Positions 4,481 through 38,781 of a DNA stretch of 64,000 nt are shown here, in pieces. A program made the position numbers and the translations under genes. Origin of the DNA: Alphaproteobacteria bacterium (lineage in GTDB: Bacteria; Pseudomonadota; Alphaproteobacteria; Micavibrionales; Micavibrionaceae); assembly GCA_024279035.1 (NCBI GenBank), contig JAJRSA010000016.1, positions 1 through 64,000 of the forward strand, written 5' to 3'. Under the pieces are notes generated by a model. That model was not told the origin of the DNA and searched no databases. It worked only from the letters and a program-made list of their open reading frames with translations. Position 1 is the first letter of the stretch, and every line of letters begins with the position of its first letter.

Positions 4481-5785
4481 TTACCGCTTCCCAATCCCCA
4501 CATACTTCCGCTCTGTCTCTCCCGTATAAAGCTGACGGGGGCGTCCTATACGAAGAGAAGGTTCTTCTATCATTTCTTTCCATTGGGAGATCCAGCCGAC
4601 TGTGCGTGAAACGGCGAAGAGGACGGTAAACATTTCTGTAGGGAATCCCATGGCGCGCAGAATGATTCCTGAATAGAAATCAACATTAGGGAAGAGTTTT
4701 CTGTCGATGAAGTAAGGGTCTGTAAGAGCAATACGCTCAAGCTCCATAGCCAGTTCAAATGTTGGGTCACTCTCGACGCCCATTTCTTTTAAAACATCGT
4801 GGCAGGAATCTTTTAAGACGGTGGCACGAGGATCTATGTTCTTATAGACCCGATGCCCAAAACCCATGAGGCGGAAGGGATCTTCTTTGTCTTTGGCGCG
4901 GGCTATGAATTCAGGGATACGGTCTTTTGTGCCTATTTCGGCCAGCATTTCAAGAACGGCCTGGTTGGCGCCTCCATGTGCAGGCCCCCAGAGAGACGCT
5001 ATCCCTGAAGAAATGCAGGTAAAGGGATTGGCTTGGGAGGAGCCTGCAATACGTACAGTTGAGGTCGAGGCATTTTGTTCGTGATCCGCATGAAGAATCA
5101 TAATACGATCCATGGCTTCGGCCAAAACGGGACTGACTTTATAGTCTTCAACAGGCAAAGAAAAACACATATGGAGGAAGTTCTCCGCATAGCCCAGATC
5201 ATTTTTAGGGTAAACAAAAGGCTGACCTTGGGAATATTTATAAGTCATGGCTGCAATAGTTGGAATCTTAGCAATGAGCCTATGTGCCGATATTTCCCGT
5301 TGTCGGACATCCCAAATATCAAGAGAATCATGATAGAAGGCCGCCAATGCACCGACGACTGCAACCATAATGGCCATGGGGTGGGCGTCTCGTCGAAAGC
5401 CTCTGAAAAAGTGATGAACCTGTTCATGCACCAATGTATGTGTGGTGATGTTGTGATCAAACTCTTTCATTTCTTCTTTGCTGGGGAGTTCTCCATAGAG
5501 CAACAAATAGGCAACTTCGAGGGCATTGCTTTTCTCGGTCAGTTCTTCAATCGAATAGCCTCGGTGGAGGAGAACGCCTTCTTCGCCATCAATATAAGTG
5601 ATCCGAGATTTACAACTTCCTGTGGCGGTGAAGCTTGGGTCGAGGGTGAAATGTCCTGTTTGTGCATAGAGCGTACGGATATCAATGGTTGCAGGCCCCA
5701 TTGTTCCTTCTTCGACAGGAAGTTTAATGCTCTCGCCTGTTTGATCATTAGTTAGCGTAAAGGTTTTCTTAGGCTGGTCGGTCAT
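4481..5785 (-). CDS. gltA: Citrate synthase
   Basis: The 434-residue enzyme condenses acetyl-CoA and oxaloacetate, the entry step of the TCA cycle. Its length fits the hexameric proteobacterial type. Visible motifs are [13 protein letters not shown] (active-site His), the [19 protein letters not shown] block containing a second catalytic His, [15 protein letters not shown], and the C-terminal [11 protein letters not shown] with substrate-binding arginines. An N-terminal beta region (about residues 1-60) precedes the helical core, as in Gram-negative enzymes. It is divergent from comEC, which matches alphaproteobacterial gene order. Confidence 0.97.
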
Positions 5786-5862
5786 GGCCGTCTCATTTCA
5801 TTTGGATGTTTTCATTCGCGTGGGGATTATATAGTGTCTATAGAGAGCAGGAAAGAGATGAA

Positions 5863-7971
5863 GTGATAAATCTACAAAAAAATAAAATAGAACGCACCCG
5901 TCTCTTTTTAATAGAAGCGTTTGCACACCAAAAAGAGCATGCCATCTTATGGTGGCCGATCTGTTTAGGGACAGGAGTTTCTCTTTATTTTTCTTTTCAG
6001 AGTGAACCTGCGTATCTGCTCTGGATCATTTTAAGCCTTCTTTTGGGCGCCCTTTCTCTCTTTTTAAAACAGAGATCAAATTGGGGGTTTATTCCTTTTT
6101 TTGCGCTGTGCCTTGTGACTTTAGGGATAGGGGCAGGGGCGTTAAGAGCATCTGTTGTGGATGCCCCACAGCTTCAAAAGAAATATAATATTGTGCGTGT
6201 GGAGGGGACATTGCAAGATATAGAACACAGAGAGAAGGGCGCAAGACGCCTTCTTCTTGGAAATTTAAAAATAGAGAGGCTAGATCCGTCTCAAACGCCT
6301 CACTTTATACGTGTAACCATGCGTCAAAAAGAGGAATTGGAGGTGGGACAACATATTTCTCTTTTGGCGTCTTTGCGCCCTCCATCGTCTCCTATTTTAC
6401 CTCATGGATTTGATTTTCAGAGATTTTTTTATTTTAAACGCATTGGAGGGACAGGCTTTACACTCTCCCATCCTGAGATTTTGGAAACAGGGATTGCCGT
6501 CCATAAATCAAAGATAGGGGAGACTCTCTTTCAAATTGCCGAGGAGATGAAAAAAGAAGTTCATCACGCCGACTCAAAAGGAAATGCAATTACACAAGCA
6601 CTTCTGACAGGAGACCGTGCCTTAATCAAGGAAGAGACATGGGCGCATTTGCGCGACTCTGGGCTGTCTCATATGCTCGCAATCTCAGGGCTTCATGTGG
6701 GCTTATTTTCAGCAACAGTTTTCTTCATCATCCGCCTTTGTCTCTCTTTCTTTCCTGCACTCAGCCTCCGTTTTCCCATTAAAAAAATAGCGGCAGTTGT
6801 CGCCTTTTGTGCGGCCTTATTTTATACGCTCCTCGTTGGTGCGTCTGTACCAACGGCCCGAGCGTGTGTCATGACAGGTATGTTTTTTCTTGCAATTATT
6901 CTCGATCGCTCTCCGTTCTCGGTTCATTTGCTTGCTTTTGCGGCGTTTGTGATTTTATTAATCCGCCCAGAAAGCCTTATGAGTGCCAGCTTTCAGATGT
7001 CTTTTGCTGCTGTTATGGGCTTGATTATTTTTTATAGCTCAACACGCTCTTTTTGGGTCAAGCATTACAGCCATGCAGGTATAGTAAGGAAATTGACGCT
7101 CTACTTTATCAGCGTGTGTGCCACCACGGTGATTGCAACACTCGTGACGACTCCCTTCACACTCTATCATTTTCAGCATTTAGCCGTATATGGTGTGTTG
7201 GGAAATCTTTTGGCTGTTCCTGTTATGGCCTTTGTGGTGATGCCAATGGCGGTGTTTAGTTTCTTTCTTCTCCCCGTTAACATGGCAGAATACCCTCTCT
7301 TTCTAATGAGATTAGGCGTTGAAATCATTATGGAGGTTTCAAGCTGGGTGAGTTCTTTAGAGGGGGCGTCTGTTTCGTTTTCTACTCTCCCTTTTTCAAG
7401 CTTTTGTCTTTTTGTTGTGGCAGGAATATGGTGCTTATCTGTTCGAGGTAGATTAAAGTGTCTGTGCGTTTTTCCACTGTTAATCGGACTTTGTGTCGTG
7501 CTTTTAACACGCCCCGCAGACATTCTTCTCTCTGAAGATGGAAAATTATGGGGGATTTATAAAAAAGATCACCTCTATGTGAACAATGCGCGGAAGGGAA
7601 AATTCACTCAAAAACAGTGGAAATCATATATTGGTACACATGAAGAGAAAGCCACTTCCTTTCCTGTGTCAGGATGTAGAGAAGACATTTGTTGTGATGA
7701 AGATGGATGTCGGACGGATATAAATAATATTCAGATCTCTTTCCTAAAAAACAAATATGCCATTCAAAAAGAGTGTCAAAGCGCAGATTTTGTTATTGCG
7801 CGATTCCATGTCTCACAAAAATTATGTGAGGGCCCGTCTGTTATTGATTGGAGTTCTTTTAAAAATAAAGGGGCACATCTTTTATGGTTTACAGATGAAG
7901 GAGCCATTGTGAACAATGTGGAAGAGAGCAGGGGGGTGCGTCCTTGGAATAGAAAAGATATAATAAGATAA
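5863..7971 (+). CDS. comEC: ComEC/Rec2-family DNA uptake channel protein
   Basis: This integral membrane protein (702 residues from this start) has an N-terminal membrane pair and DUF4131-like beta region, then the Competence domain with the diagnostic ISGLHVGLFSA and many membrane segments (TLLVGASVPTARA, SFQMSFAAVMGL). ComEC forms the inner-membrane channel for transforming DNA. The C-terminal ~130 residues are cysteine-rich in part (CREDICCDEDGC) and show no intact metallo-beta-lactamase HxHxDH motif, so the nuclease-like domain is missing or degenerate. An ATG at 5806 is in frame but only 20 bases from the gltA start; the GTG at 5863 has AGGA upstream and leaves promoter space. Confidence 0.88.
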   Translation: MINLQKNKIERTRLFLIEAFAHQKEHAILWWPICLGTGVSLYFSFQSEPAYLLWIILSLLLGALSLFLKQRSNWGFIPFFALCLVTLGIGAGALRASVVDAPQLQKKYNIVRVEGTLQDIEHREKGARRLLLGNLKIERLDPSQTPHFIRVTMRQKEELEVGQHISLLASLRPPSSPILPHGFDFQRFFYFKRIGGTGFTLSHPEILETGIAVHKSKIGETLFQIAEEMKKEVHHADSKGNAITQALLTGDRALIKEETWAHLRDSGLSHMLAISGLHVGLFSATVFFIIRLCLSFFPALSLRFPIKKIAAVVAFCAALFYTLLVGASVPTARACVMTGMFFLAIILDRSPFSVHLLAFAAFVILLIRPESLMSASFQMSFAAVMGLIIFYSSTRSFWVKHYSHAGIVRKLTLYFISVCATTVIATLVTTPFTLYHFQHLAVYGVLGNLLAVPVMAFVVMPMAVFSFFLLPVNMAEYPLFLMRLGVEIIMEVSSWVSSLEGASVSFSTLPFSSFCLFVVAGIWCLSVRGRLKCLCVFPLLIGLCVVLLTRPADILLSEDGKLWGIYKKDHLYVNNARKGKFTQKQWKSYIGTHEEKATSFPVSGCREDICCDEDGCRTDINNIQISFLKNKYAIQKECQSADFVIARFHVSQKLCEGPSVIDWSSFKNKGAHLLWFTDEGAIVNNVEESRGVRPWNRKDIIR

Positions 7972-31605: not shown

Positions 31606-33852
31606 ATGGAGCAGGCTTCAATAGGACAAAACCCGTTTACACTTATAACACGAAAATCTCTCGATGGTTTTCTTGTCACACTCCTCTTTTTTGTAGGGTT
31701 TGTCTCTGTTGTTTTCACATATCTTTCTTTTGTAGGGATTATAGAGAGCCCAACAACAGGGCAGCTTCTGAAATGTGATTTGGTTATATTTGTCTGCCTC
31801 TTATTGTTGCTTGGGCGACGTATATTTTTAATCTTTTTTGCACAAAAAAAGAATATATCCACCTCAGGGCTTCATATGAAGCTTGTTTTTCTCTTTAGCT
31901 TTGTAAGTCTTATCCCTGCGGCCTTCATGGCCTTTTTTTCGATTTTCTTTTTTCATTACGGTGTCCAGACATGGTTTAGTGAACAAATCAAAACGGCGGT
32001 TGTCGAGTCTAATACCATTGCAGAATCTTATTTAGCAGAGCATCAAAACACTATTCGTGCGGATATTCTTGCGATGGCAAACGATTTAGATCGTCAATAT
32101 AAAGTTTTTGTGGATAATGATACGGCGCTTAAACAAATGATCAACACACAAGCTTTTTATAGAAACTTATCCGATGCCTTGGTGTTTAGAGAGGATGGGG
32201 TCATTTTGGTTCATTCTGGTTCAGATAAGGAGGGTGTTTTAAATGTCTCTGATGAGTCTCTTGAGCAGGCAAAGAGTGGAAAAGTAATTGTTTTGAACAG
32301 TCATGAAGATGAGCGTGTGCGTGCTCTTGTTAAACTCAAAGCGTTTGAAAACAGTTTTTTATTGGTAGGACGTCCTGTAGATGCAACGGTTTTATCGCGC
32401 GTGCGCCGAACACGGATTGCCTCTGAAAAATATACATCTCTAGAGGATGAATCGACGCAGATAAGATTCACCTTGATTCTTATGTATGTGGCGCTCTCTA
32501 TTTTCCTTGTTTTTGTTTCTATTTGGTTTGCCTTAAAAATTGCCCAAAAATTTATTCGTCCGATTGAGAGCTTGATTGATGCCTCAAATCGTGTGCGTGC
32601 AGGAGATCTTAATATTGAGTTGAAAGAAAAGACCGGAGTGGCCGAGTTAGACCATCTTACAAAAGCCTATAACAGGATGACCATACAGCTCTCCAAGCAA
32701 AGGAATGATCTTGTCTCTGCGAATAGACAGCTTGATGAGCGTCGTTTATTTACCGAAACTGTTCTGGCAGGTGTCTCTTCAGGTATTTTGAGTGTCGATC
32801 ATGAAGGTGTTGTTAAACTACATAATGCGTCGGCACATTCTATTTTGAAAGGAAAAGAAGGCCCTACTCTGATGGGCGCGCATATTTCAGAAATCATGCC
32901 TGAAATAGAAATATCTCTAGAGAAGATTTTGTCTGCAGAGTCAAAAAGTGATTACAGCTTTCAGATTGAAATCCCTTATCTCAATAGCAATGGATCTAAA
33001 AAGGATCTCCTTTTACGTGCTGTTCCTGAAATGAGAGGAGAAAAAAACATAGGGGCAATTATTACATTTGATGATATTACAAATCTTAAATCGGCTCAAA
33101 GAAGTGCGGCATGGTCAGATGTGGCTCGACGTATTGCTCATGAAATTAAAAACCCTCTCACGCCGATTCAGCTTTCGGCGGAGCGTATTCGCAAGAAATT
33201 TTCTAAAAACATTCCCGAGAAAGAAAGAGAGACGTTTGAAACCTGTATTGAAACGATCTCTCGTCATGTAGAAGACATTGGTGCGATGGTTTCAGAATTT
33301 TCTTCTTTTGCACGGATGCCAGAGGCTAAAATAAGAAAAACTGATATCTCTACATTGATAAAGCAATGTGTTGTTTTTCACCAAGAGGGACACCCTGACA
33401 TCAAAATAAAACTCCAAGGATTGTTGGAAAATAAAAAGAAAATATCTCTTCATTGTGATGAACAACTTGTTCGTCAGGCGTTTGTGAATATCCTTCAAAA
33501 TGCGCTTGATGCTGTTACACTCAAGGAGGAAACGAAGATAAAGGAAATTTCTGTCTGGCTTCATAAAAGAGAGGATGATCTCTGCCTGATTGTTCAAGAT
33601 TCAGGAGAAGGATTTATGATGGACGAGAATGTTGAAAAGCTACTGGATCCTTATGTGACGCATAAAAAAAATGGCACAGGGTTAGGGTTAGCGATTGTTA
33701 AAAAAATTATGGCAGATCATTCTGGTGAAATTACCTTGGGTGCTTTACCATGGATGTCCGAGATAAAAGGGTGGAGAGAGATGGATGGCGCGGTTGTTAG
33801 TTTGATATTCCCCTCTCTGTACACTAAGAATGGTAAGAATAAAGATGCATAA
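31606..33852 (+). CDS. ntrY: NtrY-type sensor histidine kinase
   Basis: The 748-residue kinase has three N-terminal membrane segments, a periplasmic sensor region (~120-275), another membrane helix (~288-312), HAMP (ending ~370), a PAS domain and the HisKA/HATPase core. The phosphorylated His512 is in RRIAHEIKNPLTPIQLSAER; the N box QNALDAV and G boxes (DSGEGF, NGTGLGLAIV) are intact. NtrY senses redox or nitrogen-linked signals in Alphaproteobacteria. It overlaps ntrX. No ntrB or ntrC lies next to it. Confidence 0.95.
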   Translation: MEQASIGQNPFTLITRKSLDGFLVTLLFFVGFVSVVFTYLSFVGIIESPTTGQLLKCDLVIFVCLLLLLGRRIFLIFFAQKKNISTSGLHMKLVFLFSFVSLIPAAFMAFFSIFFFHYGVQTWFSEQIKTAVVESNTIAESYLAEHQNTIRADILAMANDLDRQYKVFVDNDTALKQMINTQAFYRNLSDALVFREDGVILVHSGSDKEGVLNVSDESLEQAKSGKVIVLNSHEDERVRALVKLKAFENSFLLVGRPVDATVLSRVRRTRIASEKYTSLEDESTQIRFTLILMYVALSIFLVFVSIWFALKIAQKFIRPIESLIDASNRVRAGDLNIELKEKTGVAELDHLTKAYNRMTIQLSKQRNDLVSANRQLDERRLFTETVLAGVSSGILSVDHEGVVKLHNASAHSILKGKEGPTLMGAHISEIMPEIEISLEKILSAESKSDYSFQIEIPYLNSNGSKKDLLLRAVPEMRGEKNIGAIITFDDITNLKSAQRSAAWSDVARRIAHEIKNPLTPIQLSAERIRKKFSKNIPEKERETFETCIETISRHVEDIGAMVSEFSSFARMPEAKIRKTDISTLIKQCVVFHQEGHPDIKIKLQGLLENKKKISLHCDEQLVRQAFVNILQNALDAVTLKEETKIKEISVWLHKREDDLCLIVQDSGEGFMMDENVEKLLDPYVTHKKNGTGLGLAIVKKIMADHSGEITLGALPWMSEIKGWREMDGAVVSLIFPSLYTKNGKNKDA

Positions 33853-35221
33853 GAGTGAACAAAAAATACTGGTTGTCGATGACGAAGAAGATATATGTAA
33901 GCTGATTCAAAATATTCTTCAAGACGAAGGTTATAGCGTTGAATATGCAACGACGATGGAGTCGGCACTCAAGATCTTTAAAGAAACTATCTTTAATTTA
34001 TGTATTCTTGATGTTTGGCTCCATGACAGTGCGGATGACGGTATTGAGCTTATGTCCCAATGTCTCAAAACACGCCCCTCTACCTCAATTATTATGATGA
34101 GTGGGCATAGTACAGTCGAAACAGCCGTTCAAGCGATCAAAAAGGGAGCGTATGACTTTATAGAGAAACCTTTTAAGACAGACCGATTATTGGTCATGGT
34201 TCAACGCGCGATAGAATTTCATAGACTTAAAAGTGAAAACAAGACCCTGAAAGGGAAGGGGACTGAGGAGAAAGAGATTGCTCTCTTGGGAGACTCCTCT
34301 GTGTTTAAAAGCTTTAAAAGCACACTTCTAAAGGCTGCAAAATCAAATAATACGGTGCTGATCTATGGAGACTCTGGAGCAGGAAAAAAAACGGTGGCGC
34401 GCTTTATTCATCAAAATTCCGAACGCAAGAAGCATCCATGCCTTACGTTGCAATGTGCACATGGAGCAGCTGAGGAGTTGGACGCTCAATTATTTGGAAC
34501 AGAAAACACTATTGGATTACTAGAGCGGGCTCATAATGGGACGTTGATTTTAAATTCCATTTCAAATCTTCCTTTGTCTGTACAAAAGAAACTTCTGAGA
34601 TATTTAGAACATGGGGCGCATAAGAAAAAAAGTGATCTGCGCCTCATTGGAACGTATGACATTGATATTCTGGAAGCTATTGAAAAAAAACTATTTTTAA
34701 AAGATTTTTTTTATATGTTGAATGTCATTCCTATCAAGATTCCTCTCTTAAAAGAAAGAGGGGAAGATATACCCCTCCTTATCAATTATTTTTATAAGGA
34801 GTTGAGCGGTGGGTCTTATGATATTTCTCAAAAATTTACGGAGTCCGCTTTTTCGGTTCTCAAAAAATACACTTGGCCAGGAAATATAAAACAATTAAAA
34901 AACTTTGTGGAGTGGTTAAATATTATTGGTCTGGAAAAAAAAGAGATGATTGATATTTACAACCTCCCTCCCTATCTCTCCGAAGAAGACCACTCTTCTT
35001 TCCATCTTCAAAACAACAATTTTTTAGAAGAGTGTTTGGTTTTTTCTCTTAAGGACGCTCGAGAAAAGTTTGAAAAAAACTATTTAGAGGGACAATTAAT
35101 TAGATTCGATTATAATATATCTAAAGCCTCCCATTTTATAGGGATGGAGCGCTCTGCTCTCCATAGGAAGCTTAAATCTCTGGGTGTTCATGCTCCCGTA
35201 AAACTGAAGGATGATATTTAG
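33845..35221 (+). CDS. ntrX: NtrX-type response regulator with degenerate AAA+ domain
   Basis: The 458-residue regulator has a receiver domain (1-120, phospho-acceptor Asp56 in CILDVWL), a sigma-54-type AAA+ region (~145-375) and a Fis-type helix-turn-helix (ISKASHFIGMERSALHRKL). Walker A remains (GDSGAGKK, 175-182), but GAFTGA is absent, as often in alphaproteobacterial NtrX. In addition Walker B reads LILNSI (234-239) without Asp-Glu, and the usual FREDLYYRLNV segment is FLKDFFYMLNV (~284-293), losing both arginines. It is thus predicted to bind DNA and respond to NtrY without ATP-driven sigma-54 activation. An in-frame ATG at 33830 is an alternative start. Confidence 0.92.
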   Translation: MHKSEQKILVVDDEEDICKLIQNILQDEGYSVEYATTMESALKIFKETIFNLCILDVWLHDSADDGIELMSQCLKTRPSTSIIMMSGHSTVETAVQAIKKGAYDFIEKPFKTDRLLVMVQRAIEFHRLKSENKTLKGKGTEEKEIALLGDSSVFKSFKSTLLKAAKSNNTVLIYGDSGAGKKTVARFIHQNSERKKHPCLTLQCAHGAAEELDAQLFGTENTIGLLERAHNGTLILNSISNLPLSVQKKLLRYLEHGAHKKKSDLRLIGTYDIDILEAIEKKLFLKDFFYMLNVIPIKIPLLKERGEDIPLLINYFYKELSGGSYDISQKFTESAFSVLKKYTWPGNIKQLKNFVEWLNIIGLEKKEMIDIYNLPPYLSEEDHSSFHLQNNNFLEECLVFSLKDAREKFEKNYLEGQLIRFDYNISKASHFIGMERSALHRKLKSLGVHAPVKLKDDI

Positions 35222-36598
35222 ATGCGCGTTGTGATTTGTGGAGCAGGGGAAGTGGGGTATAACGTGGCGTCATATCTTTCAAGAGATGCAAATGATGTGA
35301 CGCTTGTGGATATAAACTCTCAACTCATTGAACATGCAACGCGTGAATTGGATGTGAATGGAGTTGTTGGCTATTTTTCTAATCCAGAAGCTCTTTCAAA
35401 GGCAGGCCTTGCAGACGCAGATATGATTATTGCTGTTAGCCCCAATGATGAAGCCAATATGGTGGCTTGTCAGGTTGCACATTCTCTCTTTGACACACCC
35501 AAAAAAATTGCACGTATCCGTAATCAGGATTATCTCGACCCCGCATGGAATAATTTATTTAGTCGAGATCATATGCCTATTGATATGATCATTTCTCCAG
35601 AAATTGAGGTGGCAAAATCTATTTATGAAAGGCTGGCCATTACAGGCGCAACGGAAGCGATCCCCGTGTGTAACAATGATTTGTATTTTGTGGGCGCATT
35701 GTGTACAGACTCTTGCTCTATCGTACATACGCCCTTGAGGCAATTGAGAACATTGTTTTCACATTTCTTTGTGAATGTTGTTTCAATATTGCGAGAGGGG
35801 GCTTTTGTCCCTCTGGATGGAGACAGTCAGATCATAGAAGGGGACGAAATCTTTTTTCTTGTCGAATCCAAAAAAATCCCAACTCTGATGTCCTATCTTG
35901 GGATTGAGTGCGTTGATAGTCGGAAAATTATTATTTTAGGAGGAGGGCGTGTTGGAGCGTCTCTTTCCTCTCTTATCTCACACTCGATGCCCAAGGCGCA
36001 TGTGACCATTATTGAAGCCTATGCTGAACGTGCACAGTATCTTGCCCAACATTTGGACAAAGAACTCATCATTCATGGAGATGGCCTACACCCTTCTATT
36101 TTAAAGGAAGCAGAAGTTGCTCAGGCCGATACTTTGGTGGCTGTGACGAATGAAGATGAAACCAATGCTCTTTGTGCGTTACAAGCTAAGTATATGGGGT
36201 GTAAACGTTCGATTGCGCTTGTAAAAAGAGCTATTTATACCCCCCTTCTTCTTTCAACGAATGTTGATGCTACAATCTCTCCTCAAGATATTACGGCGTC
36301 TCGGATTATGCATCATGTAAGACGTGGAAGAGTCAAAGCCGTTCACAAATTGAGAGGAGGGGACTCGGAATTAATTGAAGCGATTACCTCTGAAACCTGT
36401 AAAATCATCAACCAACCAATCAGAGATCTTCATCTTCCAGAGGGCGTGCGTATTGCATCAATCAAGCGGGGAGAAGAGTTTATTTTCCCAGACCCTGATA
36501 CCGTTATAAAATCAGGAGATTTTGTTACAATTTTTTCATTAAGTGAATTTGCTCACAAGGTTGATGCCTATTTCAGTACAGATGTAGAGCTCTTTTAA
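35222..36598 (+). CDS. trkA: Trk potassium uptake protein TrkA
   Basis: The 458-residue cytoplasmic protein contains two RCK modules: Rossmann VVICGAGEVGYNVASYL at 1 and IIILGGGRVGASLSSLI near 235, each followed by a TrkA-C ligand domain. It gates Trk/Ktr potassium transporters in response to nucleotides. It begins directly after the ntrX stop codon and lies two bases before a HAD phosphatase gene, within the conserved ntrYX-trkA-hfq-hflX block. Confidence 0.96.
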   Translation: MRVVICGAGEVGYNVASYLSRDANDVTLVDINSQLIEHATRELDVNGVVGYFSNPEALSKAGLADADMIIAVSPNDEANMVACQVAHSLFDTPKKIARIRNQDYLDPAWNNLFSRDHMPIDMIISPEIEVAKSIYERLAITGATEAIPVCNNDLYFVGALCTDSCSIVHTPLRQLRTLFSHFFVNVVSILREGAFVPLDGDSQIIEGDEIFFLVESKKIPTLMSYLGIECVDSRKIIILGGGRVGASLSSLISHSMPKAHVTIIEAYAERAQYLAQHLDKELIIHGDGLHPSILKEAEVAQADTLVAVTNEDETNALCALQAKYMGCKRSIALVKRAIYTPLLLSTNVDATISPQDITASRIMHHVRRGRVKAVHKLRGGDSELIEAITSETCKIINQPIRDLHLPEGVRIASIKRGEEFIFPDPDTVIKSGDFVTIFSLSEFAHKVDAYFSTDVELF

Positions 36599-36600
36599 AG

Positions 36601-37257
36601 ATGTTTAAAAAACCAGATCTACTCATTTGGGATTGGGATGGAACCTTGGTTGACTCTCTTTCATTGATTTATGAGGCACATAACCATGTCCGCACCTCTT
36701 TTGGAGAGAAAAAATGGAGCTTTGGAGGATTTCAAAAAGTCGCGCATTATTCAACACAAGATATTTATCCCTCTTTATATGGTGAAAAAGCAGAGGAGGC
36801 GACCTCTCTTCTTTATCGTTTTTTTGAAGAAAAACATCTTGAACACACAAAGGTCATTGAAGGTGCAAAAGAGTGTCTTGATATATTCATGACACTTTCA
36901 GTTCCTATGATTCTTGTCAGTAATAAAAAACATGAATATCTTCTCAAAGAAGTTAAGCATTTTGTTTTTTCTCCCTACTTTCTCTCTGTTGTTGGAGCAG
37001 GGTACGCTGCAAAAGATAAGCCTGACAAGGCCCCCGTGATGAAAGCTCTTTTAGAAGCCAATATTCCTCCCGACTCTCTAAAAACGGCCTATTACATAGG
37101 AGACTCTCAAACAGACATAGACTCCTCTAAAAACCTCCCTTTTAAAACGCTTACCTACATTATAGGGCAAAATAAAACAGTCGGAGAAGACATAAGATTC
37201 CCAACGCTTGCGGATTTTATAAAAACAGTTGATCCAGAGCATAAACTCGATTATTGA
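36601..37257 (+). CDS. HAD-superfamily phosphatase (phosphoglycolate phosphatase-like)
   Basis: The 218-residue protein has the four HAD motifs: LLIWDWDGTLVDS (nucleophile and acid Asp), MILVSNKK, a Lys in KDKPDKAPV and YIGDSQTDIDSSK. The helical cap after motif 1 (C1 type) resembles Gph/PGP enzymes. The substrate cannot be assigned. It sits between trkA and hfq, where the alphaproteobacterial order usually has trkA directly followed by hfq or a transferase gene; spacing of two bases suggests one transcript. Confidence 0.85.
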   Translation: MFKKPDLLIWDWDGTLVDSLSLIYEAHNHVRTSFGEKKWSFGGFQKVAHYSTQDIYPSLYGEKAEEATSLLYRFFEEKHLEHTKVIEGAKECLDIFMTLSVPMILVSNKKHEYLLKEVKHFVFSPYFLSVVGAGYAAKDKPDKAPVMKALLEANIPPDSLKTAYYIGDSQTDIDSSKNLPFKTLTYIIGQNKTVGEDIRFPTLADFIKTVDPEHKLDY

Positions 37258-37289
37258 CTATAGAGTAGAAACAATAAAAAGAGATAAAA

Positions 37290-37532
37290 ATGAGTGAAAA
37301 GAACCAAAATGTCCAAGATGTTTTTCTAAACACAATTCGAAAAGACAAAGCCTCTGTCACCGTTTTCCTTGTGAATGGCGTTAAATTACAAGGCATTGTC
37401 ACATGGTTTGATAATTTTTCTGTTCTCCTGAAAAGAGATAATACGTGTCAGCTTGTCTATAAACACGCTATCTCAACCATTATGCCAGCAGAGCCGTTGT
37501 CTCTCTATGATGAAGAAAAGAAAGAAGACTAG
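37290..37532 (+). CDS. hfq: RNA chaperone Hfq
   Basis: The 80-residue Sm-like protein has [20 protein letters not shown] and [15 protein letters not shown] (Sm1) and the YKHAISTI Sm2 motif with the Lys-His pair of the proximal RNA site. It forms hexamers that pair small RNAs with mRNAs. The short acidic C-terminus is normal for the class. It lies 7 bases before hflX, the classical hfq-hflX pair. Confidence 0.97.
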
Positions 37533-37539
37533 TTCCTGA

Positions 37540-38781
37540 ATGTCTTCTTCAGCGCTGATTATTCAACCTCACTCGTCTGATTTTAAATTAGCTAAAACTT
37601 TACAGCTTACGGATAATACTCAAGAAACGGAAGGTCTTGCACGTGCAATAAATCTTGATGTTGTGTACACCCATGTGCAAAAACTCTCAAAAGCCCTGCC
37701 TGCGCATCTTTTTGGAAAAGGCATGTGTGAGCTCATATTTACCCTTATCGAAGAATATGAGCCTGATATTGTGATCGTCAATGCTGCGCTCTCTCCCATC
37801 CAACAAAGAAACTTGGAGAAGACATGGGGCTGTAAAGTCATTGATCGCACCGCCCTTATTCTTGAGATATTTGGTGCGCGCGCTCAAACCAAAGAAGGGC
37901 GCATTCAGGTTGATCTTGCTGCTCTCTCCTATCAACGTTCTCGTTTGGTCAGATCTTGGACACATCTTGAGCGCCAACGGGGAGGGGCTGGATTTATGGG
38001 AGGGCCGGGAGAGACTCAAATTGAGATTGACCGTCGTTTGATTGCAGACAAAATTTCTAAGCTCAAGAAAGATCTTAAAAAAATCCGTCAAAATCGTGAG
38101 CTACAACGGAAGAGTAGAGATCAAGTCCCTTTCCCAATTATCGCTCTTGTTGGCTATACAAATGCAGGAAAATCAACGCTCTTTAATCTCCTAACAGGCG
38201 CCAATGTCTTTGTCGAAGATCTTCCTTTTGCGACATTAGACCCGACGCTCCGTGCGCTCAAACTCCCAACAGAAGATAAAATCATTCTCTCAGACACTGT
38301 GGGCTTCATTTCCAATCTTCCCACACAGCTCATAGAAGCGTTTCGCGCCACATTAGAGCAAGTGAACCATGCTGACATTATTTTGCATGTCCGTGACATC
38401 GCAAGTGAACACACAGAACAGCAAAAACAAGATGTTATAGATGTTTTAAAAGAGATGAATATCAATTATCAAGATGATTCTCGTATCATTGAAGTCTGGA
38501 ACAAAATTGACTGTCTCGATACACAAAGCTTTCCTCCTCATATCTGCCCCGTCTCTGCCATCACAGGGCAGGGGACTGAAAGACTTCTCCAAGAGATTGG
38601 AGAGCATCTCGCCCGTGAGAAACAAAACATCACTCTAAAACTCTCTCCCTCCAACGGGAAAGCTATCGCATGGCTTCATGAACATGCGCAGATCATGAAG
38701 GAAGAGTATCTAGATGAGAAAATTTGTTTGAATGTACGAATTAACAACAGACATTTAGGACAATTTAAAAGTTTATTCTAA
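37540..38781 (+). CDS. hflX: GTPase HflX
   Basis: The 413-residue GTPase has the HflX N-terminal domain (with RTALILEIFGARAQTKEGRI and GGAGFMGGPGETQIEID) and a G domain: LVGYTNAGKSTLFN (G1), DPTLRAL (G2), LSDTVGFI (G3) and WNKIDCLD (G4). HflX splits stalled or hibernating 70S ribosomes in stress. It is complete. A 353-base gene-poor stretch follows. Confidence 0.96.
   Translation: MSSSALIIQPHSSDFKLAKTLQLTDNTQETEGLARAINLDVVYTHVQKLSKALPAHLFGKGMCELIFTLIEEYEPDIVIVNAALSPIQQRNLEKTWGCKVIDRTALILEIFGARAQTKEGRIQVDLAALSYQRSRLVRSWTHLERQRGGAGFMGGPGETQIEIDRRLIADKISKLKKDLKKIRQNRELQRKSRDQVPFPIIALVGYTNAGKSTLFNLLTGANVFVEDLPFATLDPTLRALKLPTEDKIILSDTVGFISNLPTQLIEAFRATLEQVNHADIILHVRDIASEHTEQQKQDVIDVLKEMNINYQDDSRIIEVWNKIDCLDTQSFPPHICPVSAITGQGTERLLQEIGEHLAREKQNITLKLSPSNGKAIAWLHEHAQIMKEEYLDEKICLNVRINNRHLGQFKSLF

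Follow-up and report, generated by a model that had tools for sequence, protein, structure and literature searches.

Can an NtrX response regulator still act on transcription when its AAA+ domain has lost almost all residues presumed to hydrolyze ATP? The question is raised by a gene in the window, i.e., the whole 64,000-nucleotide stretch of DNA analyzed here, in which a stop-free reading frame at positions 33845-35221 (with a second in-frame ATG at 33830) has its start overlapped by the 3' end of ntrY. The locus is organized as follows.

31606..33852, + strand: ntrY, sensor kinase and presumed NtrX partner (domains NtrY_N, HAMP, HisKA, and HATPase_c)
33845..35221, + strand: ntrX ortholog, 458 aa, REC-AAA+-Fis-type HTH (reading-frame, domain, and family-profile evidence)
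35222..38781, + strand: genes located 3' of ntrX (open reading frames)

The gene lies directly behind ntrY and ahead of trkA/hfq/hflX, which is the synteny expected for ntrX; judging from their sequences, we take the genes at 35222..38781 to be a trkA-like gene, a HAD gene, hfq, and hflX. At 15 loci examined for neighbors (the genus, rows with decayed NtrX, and a few others), NtrY and Hfq matches are found near NtrX in 14 cases and TrkA in 11. The encoded protein has the REC-AAA+-Fis HTH architecture of NtrX, and its top family is the NCBIfam NtrX model NF051870 (452.8 bits, E = 1.3e-135). This score is below the curated equivalog cut-off of 600 bits, which is exceeded by 6 of 6 intact NtrX proteins used as a control (646.7 to 710.8 bits); two congeners (450.6 and 386.1 bits) and L014 (426.4 bits) are below it too. 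Because position and best match fit and the cut-off is missed, we consider the window protein an ntrX ortholog that is not a member of the equivalog, and its function may therefore differ from that of NtrX.

Three parts of the protein are retained.

34010..34012, + strand: receiver phosphorylation site Asp56 (alignment of order rows)
34367..34390, + strand: Walker A, GDSGAGKK, with Lys181 (alignment of order rows)
35111..35182, + strand: Fis-type HTH with the NtrX signature GMERSALHRKLKSL (domain match and alignment)

The receiver pocket (Asp12, Asp13, Asp56, Ser86, and Lys108) is invariant in all 109 NtrX rows of the order. The HTH core is unaltered in the alignment with these rows and carries the signature (G)MERSALHRKLKSL, as in NtrX of Brucella and its relatives. 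The preliminary description had listed the receiver Asp56, Walker A, and HTH as intact, and the alignment bears this out for each of them. The remainder of the AAA+ domain differs at the following places.

34451..34453, + strand: position 203, the switch Asn, here Gln (Asn in 76 of 82 intact rows)
34493..34516, + strand: loop L1, FGTENTIG, 8 aa, without GAFTGA (alignment and string search)
34538..34564, + strand: Walker B column GTLILNSIS, Asp237 to Asn and Glu238 to Ser (alignment)
34604..34642, + strand: shortened loop L2 (pre-sensor I), 13 aa (alignment)
34640..34660, + strand: sensor I segment RLIGTYD (alignment)
34694..34726, + strand: arginine-finger segment FLKDFFYMLNV, Arg285 to Leu and Arg291 to Met (alignment)
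34880..34903, + strand: sensor II, GNIKQLKN, Arg349 to Lys (alignment)

Among the features that define a sigma-54 activator, Walker A is thus present, and the GAFTGA-bearing L1, the Walker B Asp-Glu pair, and the finger and sensor II arginines are all absent. As had been described, Asn237 and Ser238 (in LILNSI) replace the Walker B pair, both arginines of FRxDLxxRL are missing (Leu285 and Met291), and GAFTGA is lost, its absence extending in a string search to all 109 order NtrX rows. The observation is even slightly stronger than first described, as the sensor II Arg, switch Asn, sensor I, and L2 are also altered. A census of the order, in which the 109 NtrX rows were scored at seven key sites, finds all seven kept in 82 rows and at least one deviant in 27. 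L2 comprises 20 residues in 79 of the 82 intact rows, versus 13 in the window protein, and the sensor I segment ends in TYD, with STN or TTN being the commonest endings elsewhere. The length of L1 alone is unremarkable, because intact NtrX rows have anywhere from 6 to 21 aa there.

Sequencing or assembly error as the source of these odd residues was considered and rejected. The assembly is a 40-contig draft; however, the ntrX frame is open, and four of the five catalytic losses are also found in two congeners from separate assemblies, whose NtrX proteins have just 63% and 56% identity with that of the window. The losses of Glu238, Arg285, Arg291, and Arg349 are not errors, because they are common to both congeners and thus to all three members of the genus, and only the Asp237-to-Asn replacement, seen within the genus just in the window's genome, comes from a single assembly. 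Intact close relatives, which the preliminary description had named as a sign of error, were not found for these four sites, and the probability of an error is negligible.

It might also be that ntrX is drifting as a near-pseudogene on its way to loss. Identity with the window protein, averaged over 13 others and compared with the average among those 13, is 0.51 versus 0.65 in the receiver, 0.38 versus 0.56 in the AAA+ core, 0.37 versus 0.41 in the lid, and 0.58 versus 0.71 in the HTH. Receiver, AAA+ core, and HTH are each more divergent than their counterparts in relatives, the AAA+ core most strongly, so that general relaxation contributes; the scores of all three genus members under the NtrX model cut-off could be read in the same way. 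Nevertheless, the frame has no stops, the neighbors are retained, the receiver pocket and HTH core are unaltered, the same losses are found in congeners of such low identity, and codon position 3 is more variable than positions 1 and 2 in each domain, all of which makes drift toward loss very unlikely. The sequence comparisons indicate that the gene is under purifying selection; between the window and its nearest congener, the AAA+ core has a dN of 0.32 and a dS of 2.4, with dS being incomputable in 9 of 12 comparisons. The 82 intact rows conserve 50 AAA+ and lid positions at a level of 95% or more, and the three genus members have all lost 4 of the 5 catalytic positions among them versus 4 of the 45 others (P = 0.0014; 9.5e-5 to 1.6e-3 with a 117-row reference and other cut-offs), in a test that is post hoc, the genus having been chosen for these very losses.

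The AAA+ fold of the NtrC family is predicted to be intact in the window protein. Its structural model has a mean pLDDT of 85.5, with blocks of residues 151-310 at 84 to 94, except for a value of 73 at residues 251-260, around L2, and it matches the AAA+ domain of FleQ (5exs) with a Z score of 28.2 and an rmsd of 2.2 over 235 residues. The top solved structure is that of Brucella abortus NtrX (Z score of 30.8, 423 aligned residues, 41% identity), and its rmsd of 19.8 is taken to mean that the domains are placed differently.

The reading that we favor, with a probability of about 0.72, is that this NtrX is a non-hydrolyzing DNA-binding regulator of sigma-70 promoters that is phosphorylated by NtrY and uses its AAA+ domain as a scaffold or sensor that probably holds a nucleotide. 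ATP hydrolysis and the sigma-54 motor drive would be gone from the AAA+ domain. NtrY would phosphorylate Asp56, and the phosphorylated receiver would alter the NtrX dimer, upon which the unchanged HTH would bind NtrX sites at sigma-70 promoters and the protein might activate or repress by contact or occlusion. The fold of the AAA+ domain would persist as a scaffold and probably still hold a nucleotide, either static or serving for sensing. We infer the absence of hydrolysis, the action at sigma-70 promoters, and the control by phosphorylation; the binding of nucleotide is a guess. The preliminary description had likewise proposed a structural or nucleotide-sensing AAA+ part in a sigma-70 regulator or repressor, which fits the losses common to the genus, the predicted fold, and the retained Walker A, receiver, and HTH.

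The part of this reading that concerns nucleotide competes with a pure scaffold, in which the AAA+ domain binds none and the P-loop is retained for the fold only. The altered sensor II Arg, switch Asn, sensor I, and Walker B Asp agree with such a scaffold, as these elements assist in nucleotide and Mg binding or sensing. So does the Lys right after the Walker A Lys, a place usually taken by Asp or Glu in activators, according to the portion of PMC7175178 consulted. The Arg that stands in place of the Walker A Lys in two relatives also speaks for a scaffold. On the other hand, Gly175, Gly178, and Gly180 are found in 109 of 109 rows of the order and Lys181 in 107. All four P-loop residues are the same in the three genus members, and because this motif survives throughout the genus, the AAA+ domain probably still holds nucleotide. 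In the 11 rows without both Walker B residues, the P-loop glycines are retained in 11 and the Lys in 9, compared with 69% on average for other conserved AAA+ and lid positions, a signal that is suggestive only, as 5 of 41 non-P-loop positions are likewise retained in all 11. On balance, the nucleotide-free scaffold is possible but rather unlikely.

Brucella abortus NtrX (PDB entries 5m7n, 5m7o, and 5m7p; receiver, 4d6y), crystals of which exist with ATP and with ADP according to the entry titles, is the best sequence and fold match (41 to 42% identity by structural alignment) and resembles the window protein in domain order, length, and lack of GAFTGA. In contrast to the latter, it keeps the Walker B Asp-Glu, FREDLFHRL, and GNLRQLRN. 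VspR, VpsR, and FleQ are AAA+ proteins of a similar kind, the structures of VpsR and FleQ match the fold, and these two also work independently of sigma-54 at some promoters. They differ in belonging to other families, with c-di-GMP as the ligand (entry titles). As stated in excerpts of PMC10274813, some GAFTGA-less proteins regulate sigma-70 promoters, and among these VspR does not require ATP, and Rhodobacter capsulatus NtrC requires ATP binding but not hydrolysis. The same excerpts describe Caulobacter NtrC as needing both its Walker A and its Walker B residues; hence, it seems still to use its ATPase, and lacking GAFTGA is not in itself enough to render hydrolysis unnecessary. The Rhodobacter and Caulobacter proteins share the lack of GAFTGA with the window protein, are reported to regulate sigma-70 promoters (PMC10274813), and differ in being NtrC rather than NtrX. 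Phosphorylated Sinorhizobium NtrX binds CAAN2-5TTG, according to an excerpt of PMC9223101. The window NtrX adds a variant to the GAFTGA-less regulators already known from the NtrC family. In open-licence titles and abstract beginnings, a sample that mostly leaves aside subscription journals and is weak evidence of absence, we found no description of an NtrX lacking Walker B or arginine fingers, and in the open-licence literature no paper on NtrX together with Micavibrio, which NCBI taxonomy places in Bdellovibrionota.

Judging from the alignment, decay of the NtrX ATPase seems to recur within the order, with some relatives having lost motor parts separately. Both Walker B residues are lost in 11 of 109 rows, in at least five changes on the tree. 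The decayed NtrX of g4 (G005), g27, g30, and family f7 are like that of the window in lacking the Walker B pair, having short L1 and L2, and keeping the receiver Asp, but they retain the second arginine finger, Arg291, whose loss is confined to 3 of the 109 order rows, all from the window's genus, and is seen in none of the 80 named rows. A second g4 species (G104) retains Walker B. The association of Walker B Glu loss with L2/L1 loss in the table is unproved, because well-supported branches offer 4 usable independent pairs, too few to reach significance; L010 lacks the Glu but has a 20-residue L2, and L029 and L194 combine a short L2 with an intact Walker B. It is conceivable, and we suggest it tentatively, that the order has repeatedly turned the NtrX motor into a non-hydrolyzing nucleotide-binding domain by losing Walker B, fingers, and loops and keeping the P-loop. 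If so, NtrX would be an ATP- or ADP-occupied allosteric switch coupling the energy or phosphorylation state of the cell to DNA binding, and the window's genus would be the case with both arginine fingers gone. Since 82 rows keep all seven sites, hydrolysis may matter for ordinary NtrX, most of which retain a full ATPase without the sigma-54 contact loop. Natural NtrX with differing ATPase losses and retained receiver and DNA-binding parts provide a ready test series, which could show the roles of ATP binding and hydrolysis in a presumed sigma-70 regulator.

Loss of sigma-54 was rejected as the cause of the ATPase decay. The check for rpoN proposed in the preliminary description finds the gene in the window's genome and altogether in 55 of 57 genomes (all but G018 and G056), including all three genus members; therefore, sigma-54 loss does not explain the change in NtrX. 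The window's genome also encodes two other activators with intact GAFTGA, DE, and FRxDLxxRL, so that sigma-54 has other activators. The presence of rpoN and of these full-motif proteins would allow NtrX to take part in sigma-54 activation as a hetero-oligomer with one of them, but given the lack of GAFTGA in NtrX across the order, the short L2, and the missing finger and sensor II residues, this is extremely improbable. Upstream of ntrY, a sigma-70-like promoter pattern has 2 matches versus 0.8 expected, an uninformative difference.

The gene at issue, a preliminary description of which had proposed an NtrX with lost Walker B and arginine fingers, is placed as follows:

33845-35221, forward strand: ntrX ortholog, an open frame of 458 codons
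Immediately 5' of ntrX: ntrY, named from Pfam
3' of ntrX: genes that we take to be trkA-like, HAD, hfq, and hflX

Its product combines the receiver, sigma-54 activator AAA+, AAA+ lid, and Fis-type HTH domains of Pfam. The top NCBIfam family is the NtrX equivalog, with a score of 452.8 bits that falls under the curated cut-off of 600, as do those of two congeners (450.6 and 386.1) and of L014, a species from another genus of the order, g4 (426.4); all six intact NtrX proteins used as controls, taken from order or named records, score above it (646.7 to 710.8). Position and best match therefore mark the window gene as an ntrX ortholog, one that has diverged past the curated equivalog. Its closest relative with a solved structure is Brucella NtrX. 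The start of ntrX lies inside the end of ntrY (33830-33852), with both candidate ATGs, 33830 and 33845, preceding the last base of the ntrY stop codon, an overlap that suggests translational coupling.

Alignments bear out the residue-level description: Asp56 of the receiver and the Walker A motif GDSGAGKK are retained, whereas Asn-Ser replaces the Walker B Asp-Glu, and Leu285 and Met291 replace the two arginines of the FRxDLxxRL segment. In addition, the sensor II Arg is Lys349, the switch-Asn position is Gln203, the sensor I segment carries TYD, and loop L2 has 13 residues instead of 20. According to the portion of PMC7175178 available to us, the Walker B Glu is the gamma-phosphate sensor, R299 of NtrC1 (R168 of PspF) is the finger that reaches the gamma phosphate in trans, and contacts with sigma-54 are made through L1 and L2. 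We read the alignment as making Arg291 the likely counterpart of R299, and Arg285 the other finger. The AAA+ domain has lost its hydrolytic and intersubunit residues. The domain itself is predicted to fold: the AlphaFold2 model has a mean pLDDT of 85.5, with values of 84 to 94 across blocks 151-310 apart from 73 around L2, and its AAA+ part best matches FleQ (Z 28.2, rmsd 2.2). The best match of the full-length model is Brucella NtrX (Z 30.8, 423 residues), at an rmsd of 19.8, taken to mean that the modeled domains sit differently.

The genus sample comprises the window genome and two congeners, which read LILDRIS / FLKDLFYLLNV / GNIKQLKN (L010) and LIFDRVS / FLKDLYYLMNV / GNLKQLKN (L011) at these sites. 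Sequencing error in a protein whose close relatives are intact, one outcome that could have undone the original claim, is ruled out for four of the five sites because both congeners share those losses. Most simply, the Glu, both fingers, and the sensor II Arg would have been lost before the three species diverged, the Walker B Asp-to-Asn change being later or private to the window genome. In a post hoc comparison, 4 of 5 catalytic versus 4 of 45 other conserved AAA+/lid positions are lost in all three (P = 0.0014; 9.5e-5 to 1.6e-3 with a 117-row reference and other cut-offs). The receiver, AAA+ core, and HTH are all more diverged in this genus than in relatives. The AAA+ core is still under purifying selection, with dN of 0.32 and dS of 2.4 (near saturation) between the window and L010; third codon positions differ most in every domain.

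The proposed check for rpoN found it in the window genome and, counting that genome, in 55 of the 57 that make up the relatives set. Two further activators in the genome retain GAFTGA, Asp-Glu, and FREDLY(F/Y)RL (top NCBIfam models FlbD and LuxO, both under cut-off with partial proteins scored); thus, sigma-54 is served by others than NtrX. Most likely, NtrY would phosphorylate the NtrX dimer, which would then bind NtrX sites and act on sigma-70 RNA polymerase without hydrolysis. NtrC-family regulators that lack GAFTGA, the sigma-54-contacting motif of L1, are already known to act on sigma-70 promoters; in the parts of PMC10274813 consulted, one such relative requires ATP binding only and one no ATP, while Caulobacter NtrC requires both Walker motifs. 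Excerpts of two other papers describe phosphorylated Sinorhizobium NtrX binding CAAN2-5TTG, with some targets down-regulated (PMC9223101), and Ehrlichia, where NtrX is present, yet sigma-70 and sigma-32 are the only identified sigma factors (PMC9937504). Going by its P-loop, the window NtrX perhaps binds nucleotide; going by the switch Asn, sensor I, sensor II, and Walker B Asp, all of them changed, perhaps it does not. The titles and abstract openings listed in searches of the open-licence literature yielded no description of an NtrX with Walker B, both arginine fingers, and the sensor II Arg lost. The order provides a natural series of ATPase loss in NtrX, which makes the case moderately interesting.

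This series was surveyed in 109 full-length NtrX rows, one per genome (49 and 60 from two sets; 16 genomes were left out). The seven key sites (receiver Asp, Walker A Lys, Walker B Asp and Glu, two fingers, and sensor II Arg) are intact in 82 rows and deviate in 27, some at a single site. Both Walker B residues are missing in 11 rows, which requires a minimum of 5 changes on a quick maximum-likelihood tree built without the Walker B columns, L1, and most of L2; Arg291 is missing in 3, all from the window's genus (one change). Receiver Asp12, Asp13, Asp56, Ser86, and Lys108, the Walker A glycines, and HTH Met434, Arg436, Ala438, Arg441, and Lys442 are present in all 109 rows, and the Walker A Lys in 107. 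The 11 double-loss rows retain 93% (receiver) and 84% (HTH) of the positions conserved in intact rows, versus 69% of other AAA+ and lid positions. Among named database records, the best 80 of 592 confirmed matches and hence biased to close ones, some probably from the same genomes as order rows, 4 lack the Walker B Asp, 3 the Glu, 2 the sensor II Arg, and 1 each the Walker A Lys and the first finger; all 80 keep the second finger.

On the quick tree, where branches are long, the window's genus clusters with g4 (5 rows, SH-aLRT 99). In g4, L014 has lost L1, L2, and both residues of Walker B, whereas L194 (genome G104, ntrX at 4820-6127) has lost L1 and L2, both now short, yet keeps the Walker B Asp-Glu and Arg291; the losses therefore occur in different combinations, and L194 looks like an intermediate state of decay. 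Walker B has changed in a different way, Asp to Lys (LKEV) with the Glu, fingers, and sensor II kept, in records titled Enhydrobacter aerosaccus (L107), Rhodospirillales bacterium (L109 and L147), and uncultured Reyranella sp. (L134). The only two order rows without the Walker A Lys, L056 and L057 (genomes G042 and G054), have Arg there and also lack the Walker B Asp and Glu, the first finger, and the sensor II Arg. The decayed NtrX of L217 (genome G028, ntrX at 6313-5060) is perhaps an orphan response regulator, ntrY, trkA, hfq, and hflX being unmatched within the surrounding 11.5 kb. In L029 (genome G036), L2 is shortened despite all seven key sites being intact.
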